Of a stretch of DNA of 64,000 bases, positions 32,140 through 38,574 are shown in pieces (within the stretch, counting starts at the first letter, position 1; every line of letters starts with the position of its first letter). Under the pieces are notes generated by a model. The model did not search any database, was not told the origin of the DNA, and saw only the letters and a list, made by a program, of their open reading frames with translations. Both the position numbers and the translations under genes were made by a program. The stretch lies in the NCBI GenBank assembly GCA_009773515.1, contig WSXX01000010.1, positions 1 through 64,000 on the forward strand, read 5' to 3'. This DNA is from Bacteroidota bacterium. GTDB lineage: Bacteria > Bacteroidota > Bacteroidia > Bacteroidales > Lentimicrobiaceae.

Positions 32140-32832
32140 TTATCCATTGCGGCTTATGGTTTCAAGCCTGGAAAAATCAAGAATTTCTATTGAATTGCCT
32201 TCTGTAAGAATCAGTCCTTCATCTTTAAACGTTTTCATAATTCTGATGGCACTTTCTTTGGTCATCCCTGACATATCAGCAATATCCTGCCTTGTAAGTG
32301 AAGTAATAAACGGATTAGACTGATAAATTTTTTGCGAAAGGCAAATCAAAACTTCAGCCATACGGCCGGGCATATGTTTTTGAGTAAAGCTGGTAAGTTG
32401 TTCAAACAATCCTATAGCCTGCTCACTGACTTTTGTCATAAAACTTGAAGCAAATTCCTGATTGGTTTTAAGCAGATCCTGAATAATATCAACCTCTACC
32501 AGACAGGCAGTGCTTTCTTCACAGGCAACTGCGGTAAAATGATGGCGCTTGTCGCTGAAAGCTCCGGGCACAAAAATATAATCAACCGGACGAGCAAATC
32601 CAATTATAATTCTGCGGTCTCCTTCACCTTCCAGGTATAATTTTACCAGACCGGAAGTAACACATACAAAGTCATGGCAGGGTGAACCTTGTTTAAATAT
32701 GATTTCGCCCTGATGATATTTTATACTAACCCTGCAGTCATTCACACGATTCAGTTCTGAATCGTTAAGCGTAGTAAATATATCGGATTTCATCCGGCAC
32801 ATCAGGCAGTTGGCATGAAGCAGATTCGCCAT
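32140..32832 (-). CDS. Crp/Fnr-family regulator with N-terminal CxxC
   Basis: DNA-binding regulator of 230 residues. A cyclic-nucleotide-binding-type fold occupies residues ~25-145 (YHQGEIIFKQGSP, VTSGLVKLYLEG) and a Crp helix-turn-helix the end (LTRQDIADMSGMTKESAIRI). The N-terminus has C9 and C12, placed as the first two cluster Cys of FNR, and a Cys in ESTACLVEV aligns with FNR Cys122; the FNR Cys29 position is not a Cys. A labile Fe-S or redox switch is therefore possible but incomplete by the FNR model. It is divergent from the cytochrome cluster starting at 33048, with a 215-bp shared control region, so it is the likely regulator of that cluster. Confidence 0.9.
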   Translation of the reverse strand: MANLLHANCLMCRMKSDIFTTLNDSELNRVNDCRVSIKYHQGEIIFKQGSPCHDFVCVTSGLVKLYLEGEGDRRIIIGFARPVDYIFVPGAFSDKRHHFTAVACEESTACLVEVDIIQDLLKTNQEFASSFMTKVSEQAIGLFEQLTSFTQKHMPGRMAEVLICLSQKIYQSNPFITSLTRQDIADMSGMTKESAIRIMKTFKDEGLILTEGNSIEILDFSRLETISRNG

Positions 32833-32947: not shown

Positions 32948-33032
32948 GACTTAAGTCACTTTTGATGACGCAAATATATCACTAATCTTTTAGAAATACA
33001 TAGACATATAAATAGTTTCTTTGATATGTCAA
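32948..33032. promoter_or_regulatory. palindromes between the Crp/Fnr gene and the cytochrome cluster
   Basis: GACTTAAGTC at 32948-32957 is a perfect 10-bp palindrome, with further AAGTCA copies on either side. TTGATATGTCAA at 33021-33032 has TTGA/TCAA arms like a Crp/Fnr site but with a spacer of 4 rather than 6. The latter lies 15 bases before the first cytochrome ATG. A TTTCTTTG (one base from TAnnTTTG) overlaps it. Confidence 0.4.
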
Positions 33033-33047
33033 ACTGAATATAAAATT

Positions 33048-33434
33048 ATGAAAACAAACCACGTTAAAAAAGTACGCTTTATAATGGTACTATCTGCTTT
33101 ATTTCTGCTGGTTTTAGCGGGCTGTGAATATGAAGTTGTAGAGCCGGACAGAGCCCCTGTAACAGAAGAAGTATTGTTTTCGGAAAAGATTATTCCGATT
33201 TTTAATACGAGCTGTAATTTCTCTGGTTGTCATTCAGCCGGGGCAGTACCTCCGGATCTGACACCTGGTGGGGCATATGCAAGTCTGATGGACTTGAATC
33301 AGATTGACACAGTTAATCCGGCCAACAGCATTTTGTATAAGAGCATGACAACCGGAAGTATGAAAAATTACTCAAATGCTGCTCAGGCAAAACTCATTCT
33401 TGCCTGGATTACACAGGGTGCAAAGAACAATTAA
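33048..33434 (+). CDS. lipoprotein with a single CX4CH heme motif
   Basis: Lipoprotein of 128 residues (lipobox VLAGC). The mature part contains TSCNFSGCHSAG, a CX4CH variant of the c-type heme motif with the flanking layout of Bacteroidota 'cytochrome c domain' lipoproteins (IIPIFNTSC ... CHSAGAVPPDL ... AWITQGAKNN). If heme is attached, a His axial ligand is provided by the motif; the distal ligand is not clear. First gene of the cytochrome cluster, 28 bases before the DUF5777 barrel gene, so the two are likely partners at the outer membrane. Confidence 0.82.
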   Translation: MKTNHVKKVRFIMVLSALFLLVLAGCEYEVVEPDRAPVTEEVLFSEKIIPIFNTSCNFSGCHSAGAVPPDLTPGGAYASLMDLNQIDTVNPANSILYKSMTTGSMKNYSNAAQAKLILAWITQGAKNN

Positions 33435-33462
33435 ACAATCAATTACTGACAAGGGAAAATTT

Positions 33463-34374
33463 ATGAAACCCATGAAAAATATACTCAGAATTTTTGCAAC
33501 GGTCGTTATTGGTTTGTTGCTGGCTCAGAATGTAGCATTTGCACAGGAAGAAGAGGTAACTGAAAAACCTAAAGAACGCCCCGCACGTGCCGCTTTTGAA
33601 AGTGGTTTGCTGTTTGATGGCGCCACCACAACCCTGCAGCCTTCAAAAACGCTGGAGATGGTTATTCAGCATCGATTCGGATCTATTGAAAACGGGATCA
33701 CCGATTTATATGGTATCTGGGCTCCGTCAAATATTCGTATGGGTTTAAATTACAGCATTCTGGATAACCTGATGGTGGGTATTGGTGCAACAAAATTTAA
33801 CAAAATGCAGGATATTCAGCTGAAGTATAATGTACTTCAACAAACCAGATCAAACAAAATTCCTGTAACAATTTCTGTTTACGAAGTAATAGGTATTGAT
33901 GGCAGTGCAGATTCAAAATTTGGGAAAAACTACAAATTTACCAACAGGTTGTCGTATTTTACCCAGATATTGATCTCCAGACGATTTAATGATAAGATAT
34001 CATTACAGGTTGCGCCATCTTTTACACATTATAATTCAACCGATTCATTGGTTGATCATGACAGGTTCGCAATTTCTGTTGCTGGCCGGTTTAAATTCTC
34101 ACCACAGAGTTCGTTGATAATCTCGGGAGATTTTCCATTGCAGATTCAGGGAATTTCAGAGTATCGCAAAGATGTGAATGATACACAGGATTTGCCTCCG
34201 GTTGCCAATATATGCGTAGGACTCGAAGTTGCCACCAGCACCCATGCATTTCACGTTTACCTTGGTTCATCGCAGGGAATTATCCCTCAGGAAAATATTC
34301 TGTACAATAAAAATGATTTTTTCAAAGGCAACATCATTCTCGGGTTAAACATAACCCGTTTGTGGAATTTTTAA
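33463..34374 (+). CDS. DUF5777 outer-membrane beta-barrel protein
   Basis: Exported protein of 303 residues with signal peptide (MKPMKNILRIFATVVIGLLL ... FAQ). After an acidic linker the chain alternates strands with aromatic girdles (MVIQHRFGSIENGITDLYGI, SNIRMGLNYSILDNLMVGIG) and ends NLNITRLWNF-like with a terminal Phe, as barrels recognised by BamA. This is the DUF5777 family. It lies between a CX4CH lipoprotein and a monoheme cytochrome; in this setting a role as a porin sheath for electron transfer, or a channel for its substrate, is plausible but not shown. Confidence 0.87.
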   Translation: MKPMKNILRIFATVVIGLLLAQNVAFAQEEEVTEKPKERPARAAFESGLLFDGATTTLQPSKTLEMVIQHRFGSIENGITDLYGIWAPSNIRMGLNYSILDNLMVGIGATKFNKMQDIQLKYNVLQQTRSNKIPVTISVYEVIGIDGSADSKFGKNYKFTNRLSYFTQILISRRFNDKISLQVAPSFTHYNSTDSLVDHDRFAISVAGRFKFSPQSSLIISGDFPLQIQGISEYRKDVNDTQDLPPVANICVGLEVATSTHAFHVYLGSSQGIIPQENILYNKNDFFKGNIILGLNITRLWNF

Positions 34375-34404
34375 TCTATTTTTTAACCTAAAACATCAAC
34401 AAAG

Positions 34405-34821
34405 ATGAAAAACTCACTTAAACTCCTTTCAATTGCTTTTGCCACACTGGCATTTATTACCCTCAATCTTGCCATGACGCAGAAAGCCGCAGAACCATGG
34501 GTTATTCCTGCAAAATATAAAGCCATGAAAAGCACCATTAAAGCAGGTGATCCAACAATAAATACAATTGGAAAAGAATTGTATAACCAACATTGCAAAT
34601 CATGCCATGGCACTAAAGGCCTTGGTGACGGACCAAAAGCAAAGAACCTGAAGACAAGTACCGGAGATTTCTCCTCAAAAGCATTCCAGGATCAGGCTGA
34701 TGGCGAAATTTATTATCAGTCATTTGTCGGTCGTGATGAAATGCCCAATTTTGAGAAGAAAATTGCAGATGAAGGCGACCGATGGGCTGTAGTTTACTAT
34801 ATGCGCGCAATGAAGAAATAA
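34405..34821 (+). CDS. monoheme c-type cytochrome (copy 1)
   Basis: Periplasmic cytochrome of 138 residues with signal peptide (MKNSLKLLSIAFATLAFITL). One heme motif CKSCH in HCKSCHGTKGLGDGP and a distal Met probably from GRDEMPNFEKK, the class I pattern. It is a close paralogue of the gene at 38167 (mature parts share EPWVIPAKYKAMKSTIKA and most of the C-terminus). Likely a soluble shuttle between the membrane cytochromes and the outer-membrane parts of the cluster. Confidence 0.93.
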   Translation: MKNSLKLLSIAFATLAFITLNLAMTQKAAEPWVIPAKYKAMKSTIKAGDPTINTIGKELYNQHCKSCHGTKGLGDGPKAKNLKTSTGDFSSKAFQDQADGEIYYQSFVGRDEMPNFEKKIADEGDRWAVVYYMRAMKK

Positions 34822-34830
34822 GAGTCATAG

Positions 34831-34870
34831 CCAGAGCTGAAACCTGAAATTATTTTCAGCTTTGGTTTTT
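34831..34870 (+). terminator. rho-independent terminator after monoheme cytochrome
   Basis: CCAGAGCTGAAA (34831-34842) pairs with TTTCAGCTTTGG (34854-34865), one mismatch, followed by TTTTT. It may make the first three genes of the cluster a separate or attenuated unit. Confidence 0.7.
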
Positions 34871-34942
34871 CTTATTATTAAGAAACAGCATATACTTAAA
34901 GTACTGTTTTGTTCTGCTCAAATTACTAAAGTTTGAAATACG

Positions 34943-35941
34943 ATGAAAGATTGGTTCAGAAAAGGTGCAGCTAAAATATCCCTGTTATCGGGTATGCTAT
35001 TGTTGCCGGTACTTTTTGCTGTTTTCTTTTCAAGTGTAGCAGCTGATAAGCCTCAAACTGCTATTGATGAAGAAAGTCAGCAATGTCTTGTCTGTCATAG
35101 CTCACATAGATATGAAATAACTGATACACTTACAGGTGAAACAGTTACAATGAAAATGCATAGTGAGTTGCAGATCGACCCGGTTGAATACAGGAGTGCC
35201 ACCCACGGTGAATTTAAATGTACCGATTGTCATTCAGCCGATTACAATATTCACCCACATCCGGTAAGTACAAAATTTGAAGCCAATTACACCTGTATGG
35301 ATTGTCATGGCGGAGATGAAACATATGCTTCTTTTCATTTTGAAACCATCGAAGAGGAGTATCTGAAAAGCATTCATGCAACCGAACTGGGCGAAGAATT
35401 CACTTGCTGGAGTTGCCACAATCCGCATACCTACAAGCTTTCTGATAAACTGCCCGGACAACTGGTAAACAGGGTAGCACGTAACAACGCAGCCTGCCTT
35501 ACCTGTCATGGCGATATTAATAATTATGCTGTACTTATCGAAAAGGAATTGCCCGATCTGATTAAGAGTCACGATTGGTTACCCAATCAGAGTCTGCATT
35601 TCAGAAAAGTAAGATGCATTGATTGTCATAGCGCTAACAACGACAGCATAATGGTGGCCCATCTGGTGCTTCCTGCAGATCAGTCGGTACGTAATTGTGT
35701 GGAATGCCACTCAACCAATTCCATTCTGATGGCATCTCTTTATAAACATCAGGCAGTTGAAAAGCGAAGCAAACTTGGCTTTTATAATGGGGTAATTATG
35801 AACGAAGCCTATCTGATAGGGGCAAACCGCAATTATTACCTGAATGTGGCCAGCATTGTGATTTTTATAATGGTACTGATCGGGATTGCAATACACGCAA
35901 CTTTAAGGTACATAAACAGGCACAGAAAACATGGCAACTAA
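34943..35941 (+). CDS. seven-heme c-type cytochrome with C-terminal membrane anchor
   Basis: Multiheme cytochrome of 332 residues. An N-terminal hydrophobic signal/anchor (LLSGMLLLPVLFAVFFSSVA) is followed by seven CxxCH motifs (CLVCH, CTDCH, CMDCH, CWSCH, CLTCH, CIDCH, CVECH) between residues ~48 and ~260, and a C-terminal helix (VASIVIFIMVLIGIAIHATL) with a basic cytoplasmic tail. It overlaps the cytochrome b gene by 11 bases. A periplasmic multiheme head held next to a cytochrome b is the layout of quinol-oxidising CbcL-like and Hdr/Nar-type modules, here as two polypeptides. Partner assignment is inferred from overlap. Confidence 0.93.
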   Translation: MKDWFRKGAAKISLLSGMLLLPVLFAVFFSSVAADKPQTAIDEESQQCLVCHSSHRYEITDTLTGETVTMKMHSELQIDPVEYRSATHGEFKCTDCHSADYNIHPHPVSTKFEANYTCMDCHGGDETYASFHFETIEEEYLKSIHATELGEEFTCWSCHNPHTYKLSDKLPGQLVNRVARNNAACLTCHGDINNYAVLIEKELPDLIKSHDWLPNQSLHFRKVRCIDCHSANNDSIMVAHLVLPADQSVRNCVECHSTNSILMASLYKHQAVEKRSKLGFYNGVIMNEAYLIGANRNYYLNVASIVIFIMVLIGIAIHATLRYINRHRKHGN

Positions 35942-36617
35942 AAAGATATATCTCTACCCGCTCTGGTTAAGAATATGGCATCATGTGAATGCAGTTCTGA
36001 TGCTTGCACTGATACTTACTGGCGTCAGTATGCAATATTCCAATCCTGATTATCCCTTGATAAGGTTTGATATTGCAGTAAGTGTGCACAACATTTCAGG
36101 AATTCTTCTGACCCTTTCCTATTTTTACTTTTTCCTTGGAATTCTTTTCACTTCGATTGGCAGGCATTATGTAATGAAACAGGGCTTTATTAAAGCTTTC
36201 TATCAGCAAGCCAGGTATTATATGTTTGGAATTTTCAGAGGAGAGCCAAGTCCTTTTCCTGTAAATGCCGATCGAAAGTTTAATCCTATTCAGCAGATTA
36301 CCTACAATGTAATACAGCACGCAATTACACCGGTAACCTTCATCACAGGATGGGCGCTTCTCTACCCTGAAACAATCATTTTAAACGTGTTCGGGTACAG
36401 CGGAATTCTTCTTACCAGCCTTTTACATGTTGCCGCAGGTTTTCTGATCTCAATTTTCCTTGTCATCCATTTATATTTCATTACTGTTGGTCATTCAGTA
36501 TCCAGCAATATGAAAAGCATGATAACGGGTTATCATGAAATACATGATGATGTTAAAAATAACTCTGCTGATTCCGAAGGTGAGCAATCATCTGAAGACT
36601 CAGGTAAAACTAAATGA
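35931..36617 (+). CDS. membrane cytochrome b (HydC/FdnI-like quinone-reactive subunit)
   Basis: Integral membrane protein of 228 residues with four or five hydrophobic helices. It opens with LWLRIWHHVNAVLMLALILT and contains further helix His residues in SVHNISGILL, QHAITPVTFITGW, LLHVAAGFLI and VIHLYFIT, as needed for two b hemes. This matches the diheme cytochrome b of NiFe-hydrogenase, formate dehydrogenase and thiosulfate reductase. It overlaps the seven-heme cytochrome by 11 bases, so it should pass electrons between menaquinone and that protein. The C-terminal tail is hydrophilic (KNNSADSEGEQSSEDSGKTK). Confidence 0.93.
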   Translation: MATKKIYLYPLWLRIWHHVNAVLMLALILTGVSMQYSNPDYPLIRFDIAVSVHNISGILLTLSYFYFFLGILFTSIGRHYVMKQGFIKAFYQQARYYMFGIFRGEPSPFPVNADRKFNPIQQITYNVIQHAITPVTFITGWALLYPETIILNVFGYSGILLTSLLHVAAGFLISIFLVIHLYFITVGHSVSSNMKSMITGYHEIHDDVKNNSADSEGEQSSEDSGKTK

Positions 36618-36657
36618 ACCACACACACAATCACAAACAATCACAAAAATTAAAAAA

Positions 36658-37707
36658 ATGAAACGACAAATTTCCTTACTTACTTTAGCGACAACTGCAC
36701 TTTTTGTGCTGAGTTTTGTCATGATAAGCAGCTGTACGAAAACAGGACCTGAAGGACCTTCCGGAAAGGATGGAGAAGACGGACTTAACGCTGATGCGAC
36801 CTGTGTTAAATGCCACGACTTTTCTGATGATCTTTTGACAAAGGTACATCAGTTTGCAAATTCAGCCCACGGAAGTGGTGCCAACGTTGACCGTAGTGGA
36901 GAAGGTTGTGCACAATGCCATACCAGTCAGGGTTTCAGGCTTATGGTTGACAGCGGTCAGATTGCTGCTGTTACTTCACCTGCAATTATCAATTGCCGTA
37001 CCTGCCACAAAATTCATGAAACCTATTCACCTGCTGATTATGCATTGAGAGGCAGTGGAGCAGTGGCGATGGTAATGGGCGGCCCAGCCGCTGAATACAA
37101 TTATGGCACTTCAAATACTTGTGCCAACTGTCATCAGGGACGTGCAGTTACCCCTTATCCTGTTGCCGGAGGTGACCCTGTTCAAGTAACAAATAAAAGG
37201 TATGGCCCGCATTATGGTCCTCAGGCTAATATGTTCATTGGAAAAGGTGCTTATGAAATTGCTGGCCCGATGCCTTATTCAAATTCGCCACATACCCAAG
37301 CAGTTACCAATGGTTGTGTAACCTGCCATATGGATGGAGCCCCGGTTGGTTTAAAAGCCGGTGGTCATCAGATGAGTATTACCTATAACGAGACATCAAA
37401 ACTGCTTACCGGTTGCACCGTTTCCGGGTGTCATACAGATGCGGCTGTTGTTAAATCAATGTTTGATGCCAACAGGGCAGAAATTGCTGCACTTGAATTG
37501 GAGCTAGAGACTGAACTTAAAGCACGAGGCCTTTTGGCAGCTGATGGTTATGTTACTGTTCCAGCTACTCTTACTCAGGATCAATTGGGAATTATCCTGA
37601 ATCTGAAACTGGTTCATTACGATCACAGTTATGGTGCACATAATTATCGCTATACCAAAGCTTTACTTGTAAATTCTTTGGATGCTTTAGCTAAAATGGG
37701 CGTTTAA
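36658..37707 (+). CDS. six-heme cytochrome lipoprotein with collagen-like stalk
   Basis: Lipoprotein of 349 residues (lipobox ISSC). Directly after the acylated Cys is a short Gly-X-Y stretch (GPEGPSGKDGEDGLNA). Heme motifs are CVKCH, CAQCH, CRTCH, CANCH, CVTCH and a CX4CH (CTVSGCH). The end, HYDHSYGAHNYRYTKALL, resembles the distal-His region of NrfA-like and other multiheme reductase folds, but the NrfA catalytic CxxCK is absent. I infer a surface or periplasmic electron carrier, or a reductase of unknown acceptor. It follows the cytochrome b by 40 bases and ends in a strong terminator. Confidence 0.9.
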   Translation: MKRQISLLTLATTALFVLSFVMISSCTKTGPEGPSGKDGEDGLNADATCVKCHDFSDDLLTKVHQFANSAHGSGANVDRSGEGCAQCHTSQGFRLMVDSGQIAAVTSPAIINCRTCHKIHETYSPADYALRGSGAVAMVMGGPAAEYNYGTSNTCANCHQGRAVTPYPVAGGDPVQVTNKRYGPHYGPQANMFIGKGAYEIAGPMPYSNSPHTQAVTNGCVTCHMDGAPVGLKAGGHQMSITYNETSKLLTGCTVSGCHTDAAVVKSMFDANRAEIAALELELETELKARGLLAADGYVTVPATLTQDQLGIILNLKLVHYDHSYGAHNYRYTKALLVNSLDALAKMGV

Positions 37708-37728
37708 CCTAAAGCCAGATTTTCCTTT

Positions 37729-37766
37729 GAAGCCTGTCGTGCATGTGCATGACAGGCTTCACTATT
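37729..37766 (+). terminator. rho-independent terminator after six-heme lipoprotein
   Basis: GAAGCCTGTC (37729-37738) pairs perfectly with GACAGGCTTC (37751-37760); the inner TGCA..TGCA extends the stem. A T-rich tail follows. Confidence 0.75.
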
Positions 37767-37849
37767 TTATGCGCCAAATATTCAATAACATTTAATTCCA
37801 ACTCAGGACTTCTGACAGCAATCTGCCAGCAAAAATATCATGACATAAA

Positions 37850-37881
37850 CAAAAAAAAGTCCCTACAACCGGGGCTTTTTT
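37850..37881. terminator. decayed copy of the rho terminator
   Basis: A run of A, then GTCCC, a short loop, GGGGC and T6: the same layout as the intact terminator at 38642-38675, with two stem mismatches. It is part of the duplicated rho 3' end. Confidence 0.6.
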
Positions 37882-37899
37882 AAGAATATGAAATTGGTT

Positions 37900-38020
37900 T
37901 TATCCGTTCATTGATACCAGAAACTCTTTTTATTCGGGTTAGGATTGGAATTTCAAATTTAATTCTACATTAAATAGCGGACTTTGATTTAGTTCCGAAG
38001 CAAGGCCATCTGGTTAAAAT
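37900..38020 (-). pseudogene. fragment of the 3' end of rho
   Basis: On the minus strand this stretch ends KEFLVSMNG-stop, identical in sense to the intact rho end EEFLVSMNG, and further upstream keeps alignable pieces (TTGAAATTCCAA for ATGAAATACACA; AACCAGATGGCC for AACCATCTGGCC) with stops and an insertion between. Together with the terminator copy at 37850-37881 it is a decayed duplicate of about 40 codons of rho plus its terminator. It lies upstream of the second monoheme cytochrome gene, so cytochrome copy 2 sits between a rho remnant and rho. Confidence 0.75.
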
Positions 38021-38166
38021 AAATATCACTTTCAGGAATGTCATTTATCAATTTTGCAAAGTATATGGAAAAAGATTTTTTTTGGCATGGTATTGGCCTT
38101 AAAGTAAACCAAACGGGTAATATTTCCCAAAGTGACATTTTTATTCAATCATCAAAAAATAAAAAA

Positions 38167-38574
38167 ATGAAAAATTCAATGAAATTAATCCTGATGCTGG
38201 TTGCTGTTTTGACTTTCTCAACCACGATAATGGCCCAAAACAAAAGTGAGCCCTGGGTGATTCCTGCAAAATACAAAGCCATGAAAAGTACCATCAAAGC
38301 GAACGATCCTTCAGTAATGACCGTAGGTAAGGAACTCTACAACAAACATTGTAAATCCTGTCATGGAACAAAAGGTTATGGTGATGGGCCAAAATCTGCG
38401 AGTATGAAAACAGAAATTCGTCCATTAAATGATAAGGCCTTTCTTGCACAGACTGATGGAGAAATTTACTACCAATCTTTTGTAGGACGTGATGAAATGC
38501 CGAATTTTGAGAAGAAAATTCTGGATGAAGAAGACAGATGGGCTGTTGTGCAATTCATGCGTACTTTAAAGTAA
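38167..38574 (+). CDS. monoheme c-type cytochrome (copy 2)
   Basis: Periplasmic cytochrome of 135 residues; the signal peptide starts at MKNSMKLILMLVAVLTFSTT (43 upstream codons are open but unlike a signal). One heme motif in HCKSCHGTKGYGDGP, distal Met probably in GRDEMPNFEKK. About three quarters of the mature residues match copy 1 at 34405. Between rho remnant and rho, with no clear promoter box; an AT-rich leader precedes it. The two paralogues may serve different partners or growth states. Confidence 0.92.
   Translation: MKNSMKLILMLVAVLTFSTTIMAQNKSEPWVIPAKYKAMKSTIKANDPSVMTVGKELYNKHCKSCHGTKGYGDGPKSASMKTEIRPLNDKAFLAQTDGEIYYQSFVGRDEMPNFEKKILDEEDRWAVVQFMRTLK

Follow-up and report, generated by a model that had tools for sequence, protein, structure and literature searches.

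The stretch of DNA analysed here, called the window throughout, comprises 64,000 nucleotides of contig WSXX01000010.1 (assembly GCA_009773515.1), from a member of the Lentimicrobiaceae; all positions refer to it. At 33048-38574 it carries seven genes on the forward strand, among them those for a DUF5777 outer-membrane barrel, a seven-heme and a six-heme cytochrome and a cytochrome b, and a gene for a regulator of the Crp/Fnr family lies divergent from them. An earlier note, made from the sequence alone, had given this gene inventory together with the divergent regulator, and the open reading frames, Pfam matches and heme-motif counts agree with it. The coordinates also bear out the overlap of 11 bases that it had described between the seven-heme and cytochrome b genes. 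The features of the locus are as follows.

32140-32832, reverse strand: regulator of the Crp/Fnr family (Pfam cNMP_binding and HTH_Crp_2)
33021-33032, no strand assigned: weak, imperfect Fnr-like palindrome, TTGA-N4-TCAA, just 5' of the first gene
33048-33434, forward strand: monoheme lipoprotein with one CX4CH motif and a lipobox; no Pfam family
33463-34374, forward strand: DUF5777 outer-membrane beta-barrel (PF19089, E 4.9e-74), 12 strands predicted by AlphaFold2
34405-34821, forward strand: monoheme class I cytochrome c, paralogue 1, with a signal peptide-like N-terminus (PF00034, E 3.5e-11; one CXXCH)
34943-35941, forward strand: seven-heme c-type cytochrome (seven CXXCH) with one C-terminal hydrophobic helix (hydrophobic 19-mer, residues 299-317)
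35931-36617, forward strand: cytochrome b of the PF01292 (HydC/FdnI/PhsC) group, probably diheme (Ni_hydr_CYTB, PF01292, E 9.2e-21)
36658-37707, forward strand: six-heme lipoprotein of the OcwA/NrfA type, candidate terminal reductase (profile and Foldseek matches)
38167-38574, forward strand: monoheme class I cytochrome c, paralogue 2 (PF13442, E 8.8e-12)

Conserved residues were read from alignments of related proteins. For the seven-heme protein the window was aligned with 21 of 29 other loci fetched from the order; matches with stop codons and a few others were left out. The alignments of the barrel, the six-heme protein, the monoheme lipoprotein and the cytochrome b hold the window plus 53, 49, 47 and 37 rows, respectively, redundancy-filtered from 76, 63, 72 and 75 candidate frames; a few filtered rows were dropped, as were rows whose length fell outside set limits. 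The six-heme lipoprotein has five CXXCH motifs and one CX4CH (CTVSGCH), and besides the seven-heme and six-heme genes no frame of at least 60 residues with two or more CXXCH motifs was found in the 64-kb window. At the position of the CX4CH motif, CXXCH is found in 36 of 48 homologues of the small lipoprotein and in 30 of 50 homologues of the six-heme protein. Because relatives carry CXXCH at the same positions, the CX4CH motifs are very likely genuine heme sites. The lipobox cysteine is invariant in both families (50/50 for the six-heme lipoprotein; Cys26 in 48/48 for the monoheme lipoprotein, in which the heme Cys/Cys/His are invariant as well). The two monoheme class I cytochromes are paralogues that share 68% identity.

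Of 198 genomes sampled from the order, 41 contain the seven-heme protein, including the genome from which the window comes; the match in one of them (G171) is weak, which leaves strong matches in 40, about a fifth. Across the phylum, 45 of 296 sampled genomes match the seven-heme profile, and in 5 of the 45, own genome included, the match is at E<1e-40; the other phylum-wide matches are weak and partial and were not taken as orthologues. When plasmids were searched by tblastn with the seven-heme protein, nothing matched. Gene neighbourhoods of up to 14 frames each were assembled for the best 80 of 459 seven-heme relatives, all Bacteroidota by title; the window is close to metagenome-assembled genomes labelled Lentimicrobium (83% identity). 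These 80 named loci were picked by similarity and some of their contigs end inside the cluster, so that the counts are biased and incomplete. Of the 80 neighbourhoods, 77 include the cytochrome b, 75 the barrel, 71 the CX4CH-type lipoprotein, 65 a monoheme cytochrome, 62 the Crp/Fnr-family regulator and 58 the six-heme protein. In a second set, of 40 loci plus the window (n=41), the barrel was present in 36, the monoheme lipoprotein family in 35, the regulator in 31 and the six-heme protein in 28; the two sets overlap, since in at least 13 cases a named locus has a seven-heme sequence identical to one in the second set. The neighbours recur in both sets, and the genes are thus syntenic in related genomes and not scattered, which supports the earlier reading. 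Given the occurrence of the seven-heme protein in 41 of 198 genomes and the recurring neighbours, the cluster is more than a chance neighbourhood.

The seven-heme and six-heme proteins also tend to occur together. Among the 198 genomes of the order both were found in 34, the seven-heme protein only in 6, the six-heme protein only in 12 and neither in 146 (Fisher p 5e-22, a value that is overstated since the genomes are related). The threshold for this count, E<1e-40, was chosen afterwards; G171 and weak matches were left out, many of the latter lying in frames of about 500 residues and therefore being probably NrfA. Judged by titles and the openings of abstracts, no description of the cluster was recognised in the literature on multiheme cytochromes or extracellular electron transfer (EET) in Bacteroidetes, Bacteroidota, Bacteroidales or Lentimicrobium, and DUF5777 was not mentioned in the literature searched.

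The cytochrome b and the seven-heme cytochrome have the make-up expected of a quinol oxidase. His17, His53, His166 and His180 of the cytochrome b are invariant in all 38 aligned sequences, the pattern expected of two hemes b, and the protein is probably diheme. Its best NCBIfam match is PRK15006, thiosulfate reductase cytochrome b, with 139 bits, under the 204-bit cut-off. In the seven-heme protein, 15 histidines are invariant in 22/22 sequences: those of the seven CXXCH motifs, seven further periplasmic ones and one in the C-terminal helix. With seven further invariant periplasmic histidines available, every heme c of the protein can have two histidine ligands, so that a catalytic heme is not required. 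The two genes adjoin in 77 of the 80 named loci, and in two of these both domains occur in one natural reading frame (L088, 549 residues; L130, 528 residues); these natural fusions suggest that the two proteins act as one complex. Four invariant histidines in the b subunit, seven in the periplasm and two fusions thus support, at the level of sequence, the split b/c-type quinol oxidase proposed by the earlier note. His318 of the seven-heme protein, beside the C-terminal hydrophobic helix, is likewise invariant (22/22) and could be part of a heme b or quinone site shared with the cytochrome b.

The proposal had named CbcL of Geobacter as the model for this pair. CbcA has seven hemes, and CbcBA is probably the better-matched Geobacter comparison for the gene pair than the fused, nine-heme CbcL. 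For CbcL, six helices and two hemes b are reported, together with nine hemes c that all have bis-His ligation (PMC9129911). The likeness to the CbcBA and CbcL systems of Geobacter sulfurreducens is one of architecture, a cytochrome b with a multiheme c head that is adjacent or fused, as these are described in the literature (PMC12307469, PMC9129911, PMC6148476). CbcL, however, is one chain with nine hemes c, whereas here there are two genes and seven hemes.

That no terminal reductase is encoded, as the earlier note had it, needs correction, because the six-heme lipoprotein is similar to OcwA by profile and fold and bears a more distant resemblance to NrfA. A profile of 50 six-heme homologues matched OcwA (6i5b) at E 2.9e-17, Geobacter NrfA (6v0a) at E 1.8e-15, octaheme nitrite reductase at E 1.8e-12, UndA at 1.2e-5 and MtrF at 0.017, and there is a Pfam match to MtrC/MtrF domain II/IV (34.2 bits, cut-off 30). 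Searching with the six-heme sequence of L. filiforme alone gave nothing at E 0.01. The AlphaFold model of the window protein (pLDDT 88.9) has long C-terminal helices, and in a Foldseek search with it OcwA was the only Protein Data Bank (PDB) entry at E<=0.001 (E 1.6e-5); the structural alignment has a TM score of 0.52 by query length, an rmsd of 5.5 and 19% identity. By profile and fold, then, the protein contains an NrfA-like five-heme core followed by a C-terminal helix bundle.

OcwA of Thermincola potens is described as an NrfA-like terminal reductase of the surface that acts on iron oxide and, slowly, on nitrite; its hemes 2 and 5 are open, bound through CXXCH and each overlain by a His-His pair (PMC6703420). 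The six-heme protein matches the C-terminal five-heme half of OcwA and its helix bundle. It lacks the CXXCK of NrfA and has CXXCH there, with His88 in all 50 homologues, as OcwA has at its open-site heme. Counting back from the last aligned CXXCH, we infer that heme 2 of the six-heme protein corresponds to heme 5 of OcwA, an open-site heme. His185 is found in 50/50 homologues and is followed at residue 186 by His in 26 and Tyr in 21, the window having Tyr. From the numbering given in the OcwA paper (281/282 and 380/381; PMC6703420), residues 185/186 would fall within one residue of its second His pair, and a conserved His-His/Tyr would thus stand at about the matching place. The alignments to OcwA did not span His185/186, including one from a dedicated sub-profile, in which OcwA did not reach E 0.001. 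OcwA differs in having nine hemes, with a c554-like N-terminal half that is absent here, and in its His-His where the window has His-Tyr; here, moreover, the protein is a lipoprotein of a Gram-negative bacterium. Candidate distal histidines are conserved at positions 71, 120, 185, 212, 237 and 328, each in 49 or 50 of the 50 homologues. The six-heme lipoprotein is the best candidate for a terminal reductase in the cluster; its activity and outward orientation are predictions.

The earlier proposal of the barrel as a conduit that takes up a heme lipoprotein is weakened. The AlphaFold2 model of the DUF5777 protein (pLDDT 89.9) has 12 long strands, for which the standard barrel formula gives a backbone radius of about 11-12 Å, versus about 24-26 Å for 26 strands. 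With such a predicted radius a folded cytochrome should not fit inside one DUF5777 chain, which for a single chain largely speaks against uptake of either lipoprotein. Foldseek matches of the barrel were to small porins and transporters (FapF, OmpG, NanC) and were not specific. As to homology with MtrB or PioB, only PF19089 scored above its Pfam cut-off and no PDB sequence match was found at E<=10. Of 247 genomes sampled across the phylum, 98 have DUF5777. Around the 30 best-scoring DUF5777 loci, a profile match to the monoheme lipoprotein was found within about 1.5 kb in 23, and profile matches to multiheme or cytochrome b genes over the same distance in none. The barrel and the monoheme lipoprotein, which recur together at loci with no multiheme genes nearby, are thus a wider Bacteroidota module of which the cluster makes use. 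At the likely distal ligand position the monoheme lipoprotein has His in 29 and Met in 17 of 48 sequences, and its profile best matches hydrazine synthase alpha (E 1.3e-7); the iron oxidase FoxE is matched only weakly (E 3e-4).

Two histidines of the barrel, His70 and His261, are invariant in 54/54 homologues and, judged by eye from strand alternation, appear to face outward or to lie at the rim. The same genome has a second DUF5777 gene (C33:38474-39211; locus L183), preceded by two cytochrome lipoprotein-like genes, one of them with two heme motifs and a PSCyt1 match (E 1.1e-13), and the module may serve another role there. In other Bacteroidota (L185, L190 and L202), DUF5777 has as neighbours proteins that look YceI-like by eye, or a DOMON protein (PF03351, E 6e-5, under the cut-off).

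The divergent regulator was compared with 51 divergent neighbours of the set in other genomes, and Cys9, Cys12 and Cys110 are invariant in all 52 proteins, which is consistent with an Fe-S sensor. Classical Fnr has four cysteines and the target TTGAT-N4-ATCAA. We counted this and other patterns, eleven in all and most of them without result, in 52 divergent intergenic regions (51 related loci and the window) and in 200 single-base shuffles. The full Fnr box was present in 13 of the 52 regions, against a shuffle maximum of 1, and TTGA-N4-TCAA in 4, where the shuffles had a mean of 0.5 and a maximum of 3.

Reduction of Fe(III) has been shown in isolates of Labilibaculum, a genus of Bacteroidetes (PMC5760507), and Labilibaculum filiforme 59.16B, the type strain, carries the set (L119, NZ_MVDD01000013.1); its six-heme gene lies on the opposite strand, about 6.6 kb downstream. 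As reported in that paper, this strain reduces Fe(III) and, with glucose present, does not reduce nitrate, nitrite or sulfate; electron transfer to Fe(III) oxides amounted to 2-3% of equivalents, and the authors considered NrfHA and a ferric reductase as candidates while stating that assignment of the genes needs further study. The coincidence of the set with Fe(III) reduction in L. filiforme is a correlation in one species. Elsewhere in the genome of the window we found an NrfA with CXXCK beside a four-heme gene that appears NrfH-like by eye, two heme-copper oxidase matches and two molybdopterin matches, none of them in the cluster. Other acceptors thus have their own enzymes in this genome.

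We read the cluster as an anaerobically regulated chain that runs from a CbcBA/CbcL-like quinol oxidase to an OcwA-like lipoprotein reductase and serves acceptors outside the cell or at its surface, and we put the chance that this is correct at about even. Fe(III), humic substances or soluble shuttles are the likely acceptors. The cytochrome b and the membrane-anchored seven-heme cytochrome would form one complex that oxidises menaquinol, as CbcBA and CbcL do in Geobacter; the monoheme cytochromes would carry electrons across the periplasm; and the six-heme lipoprotein, held at the outer membrane by its lipid and a flexible Gly/Pro/Asp-rich linker, would be the terminal reductase. The DUF5777 barrel and the monoheme lipoprotein would be a conserved outer-membrane pair that somehow assists the outer-membrane step. 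In favour of this chain are the synteny, the joint occurrence of the seven-heme and six-heme genes, the b/c fusions, the match to OcwA with its conserved His185, the further possible quinol oxidisers and cytochrome c assembly genes near the set in relatives, the Fnr boxes upstream of related loci and the presence of the set in L. filiforme. The earlier interpretation is partly supported, in its quinol oxidase and in a set that is not scattered; its statement on the reductase needs correction, and its conduit is weakened.

Several observations weigh against this chain. The narrow barrel leaves the crossing of the outer membrane without an explanation. The published signal for surface export in Capnocytophaga is C-X-K-(D/E)2-X (PMC5080379); the residues from the lipid cysteine of the six-heme lipoprotein are C-T-K-T-G in the window and most commonly C-T-K-E-G in the family, which fit it only in part, and the small lipoprotein begins C-E-Y-E and does not fit. 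Six candidate distal histidines for six hemes may mean that all the hemes are saturated and that the protein is a relay only. The full Fnr box is absent from the window, which has only the TTGA-N4-TCAA at 33021-33032. The six-heme gene occurs without the seven-heme gene in 12 of the 198 genomes, and 22 of the 80 named loci lack it among the 14 genes of the neighbourhood, although some of the contigs end early. Finally, L. filiforme is described as having NrfHA and a predicted ferric reductase (PMC5760507), and its Fe(III) reduction therefore need not use the set.

The resemblance of the six-heme lipoprotein to NrfA leads to a different view, in which it faces the periplasm and reduces nitrite, hydroxylamine or another small molecule, so that the cluster would allow a small N- or S-oxide to be respired or detoxified, with the b/c quinol oxidase feeding the lipoprotein via the monohemes and the barrel admitting the substrate. 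The profile matches to NrfA and to octaheme nitrite reductase are in keeping with such a role, OcwA itself is reported to reduce hydroxylamine as well as, slowly, nitrite (PMC6703420), the cytochrome b is nearest to a PhsC-type thiosulfate reductase model, and a small barrel suits a solute pore. However, the protein is without CXXCK, its best fold match is OcwA and not NrfA, the genome has a separate CXXCK NrfA beside its NrfH-like gene, and the set-bearing L. filiforme is reported to reduce neither nitrite nor nitrate or sulfate on glucose (PMC5760507). We consider a periplasmic role of this kind possible but rather unlikely. The full model of the earlier note, in which barrel and lipoproteins form a porin-cytochrome conduit across the outer membrane like MtrCAB, draws on the presence of the barrel and the small heme lipoprotein in 75 and 71 of the 80 neighbourhoods, on the Pfam match of the six-heme protein to MtrC/MtrF domain II/IV and on the weaker profile matches to UndA and MtrF. 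The conduits of Shewanella (MtrCAB) and Geobacter (Pcc/Ext) likewise have a barrel gene beside heme lipoproteins. They differ from the present cluster, which has a small barrel of only 12 predicted strands, no ten-heme plug or partner in the window and a surface-type protein closer to another family; in addition, DUF5777 is widespread, with no multiheme genes within about 1.5 kb at its 30 best loci, and MtrC and MtrF are absent among the 43 Foldseek matches of the six-heme model. All this makes an MtrCAB-like conduit distinctly improbable. A reversed chain, which would take in electrons from Fe(II), reduced humics or a partner cell and deliver them to the quinone pool, seems to us very improbable. 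Such pathways can be bidirectional (PMC8258643), the monoheme lipoprotein has its weak match to FoxE, and the two heme-copper oxidases of the genome could serve as a sink, but Fnr-type control and occurrence in a fermentative Fe(III) reducer favour disposal of electrons.

If the chain to an OcwA-like reductase is right, the OcwA type of terminal reductase, known from a Gram-positive bacterium, is also used by a Gram-negative one, which has an outer membrane, and electrons have a defined route to extracellular acceptors in a second phylum. The cluster is a concrete, testable set of candidate genes for Fe(III) reduction in Bacteroidetes; the type strain of L. filiforme, which reduces Fe(III), carries it. 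A seven-gene cluster in Bacteroidetes_1 from an anode has been described as previously uncharacterised and likely to function in EET (PMC8258643). By its description it resembles the present cluster in combining Bacteroidetes cytochromes with one beta-barrel, and differs in having six multiheme cytochromes beside the barrel. More speculatively, and improbably in our estimate, DUF5777 and the monoheme lipoprotein could be a minimal outer-membrane electron gate general to Bacteroidota, with one heme domain docked on a small barrel. The anaerobic Bacteroidales would have linked this gate with a b/c quinol oxidase on its inner side and with an OcwA-type reductase on its outer side, and it would be a two-gene counterpart of Cyc2, which is a fused design.

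Other electron-transfer genes accompany the set in some genomes. Near the six-heme gene in the 12 genomes that have it alone, the frames included a regulator in 5, a barrel in 4, cytochrome c assembly genes in 3, an NrfD-type protein in 2 and a 19-heme protein in 1. Among the 80 named loci, other possible quinol oxidisers near the set were NrfD-type proteins (26) with FeS proteins (29), a 500-residue NapC/NirT-like cytochrome (25) and a 19-heme protein, and cytochrome c assembly genes were also found in the neighbourhoods of relatives. A 741-residue protein beside the Marinifilum set was considered as a FeoB iron(II) transporter and rejected, as by eye its sequence reads as a TonB-dependent receptor. 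In L102, L117, L118 and L135 the set is followed by a 19-heme protein of 931-933 residues, which in L118 has a cytochrome b-like stretch (PF01292, 24.7 bits, under the 30.1 cut-off); this protein may be an alternative, larger electron-transfer unit.

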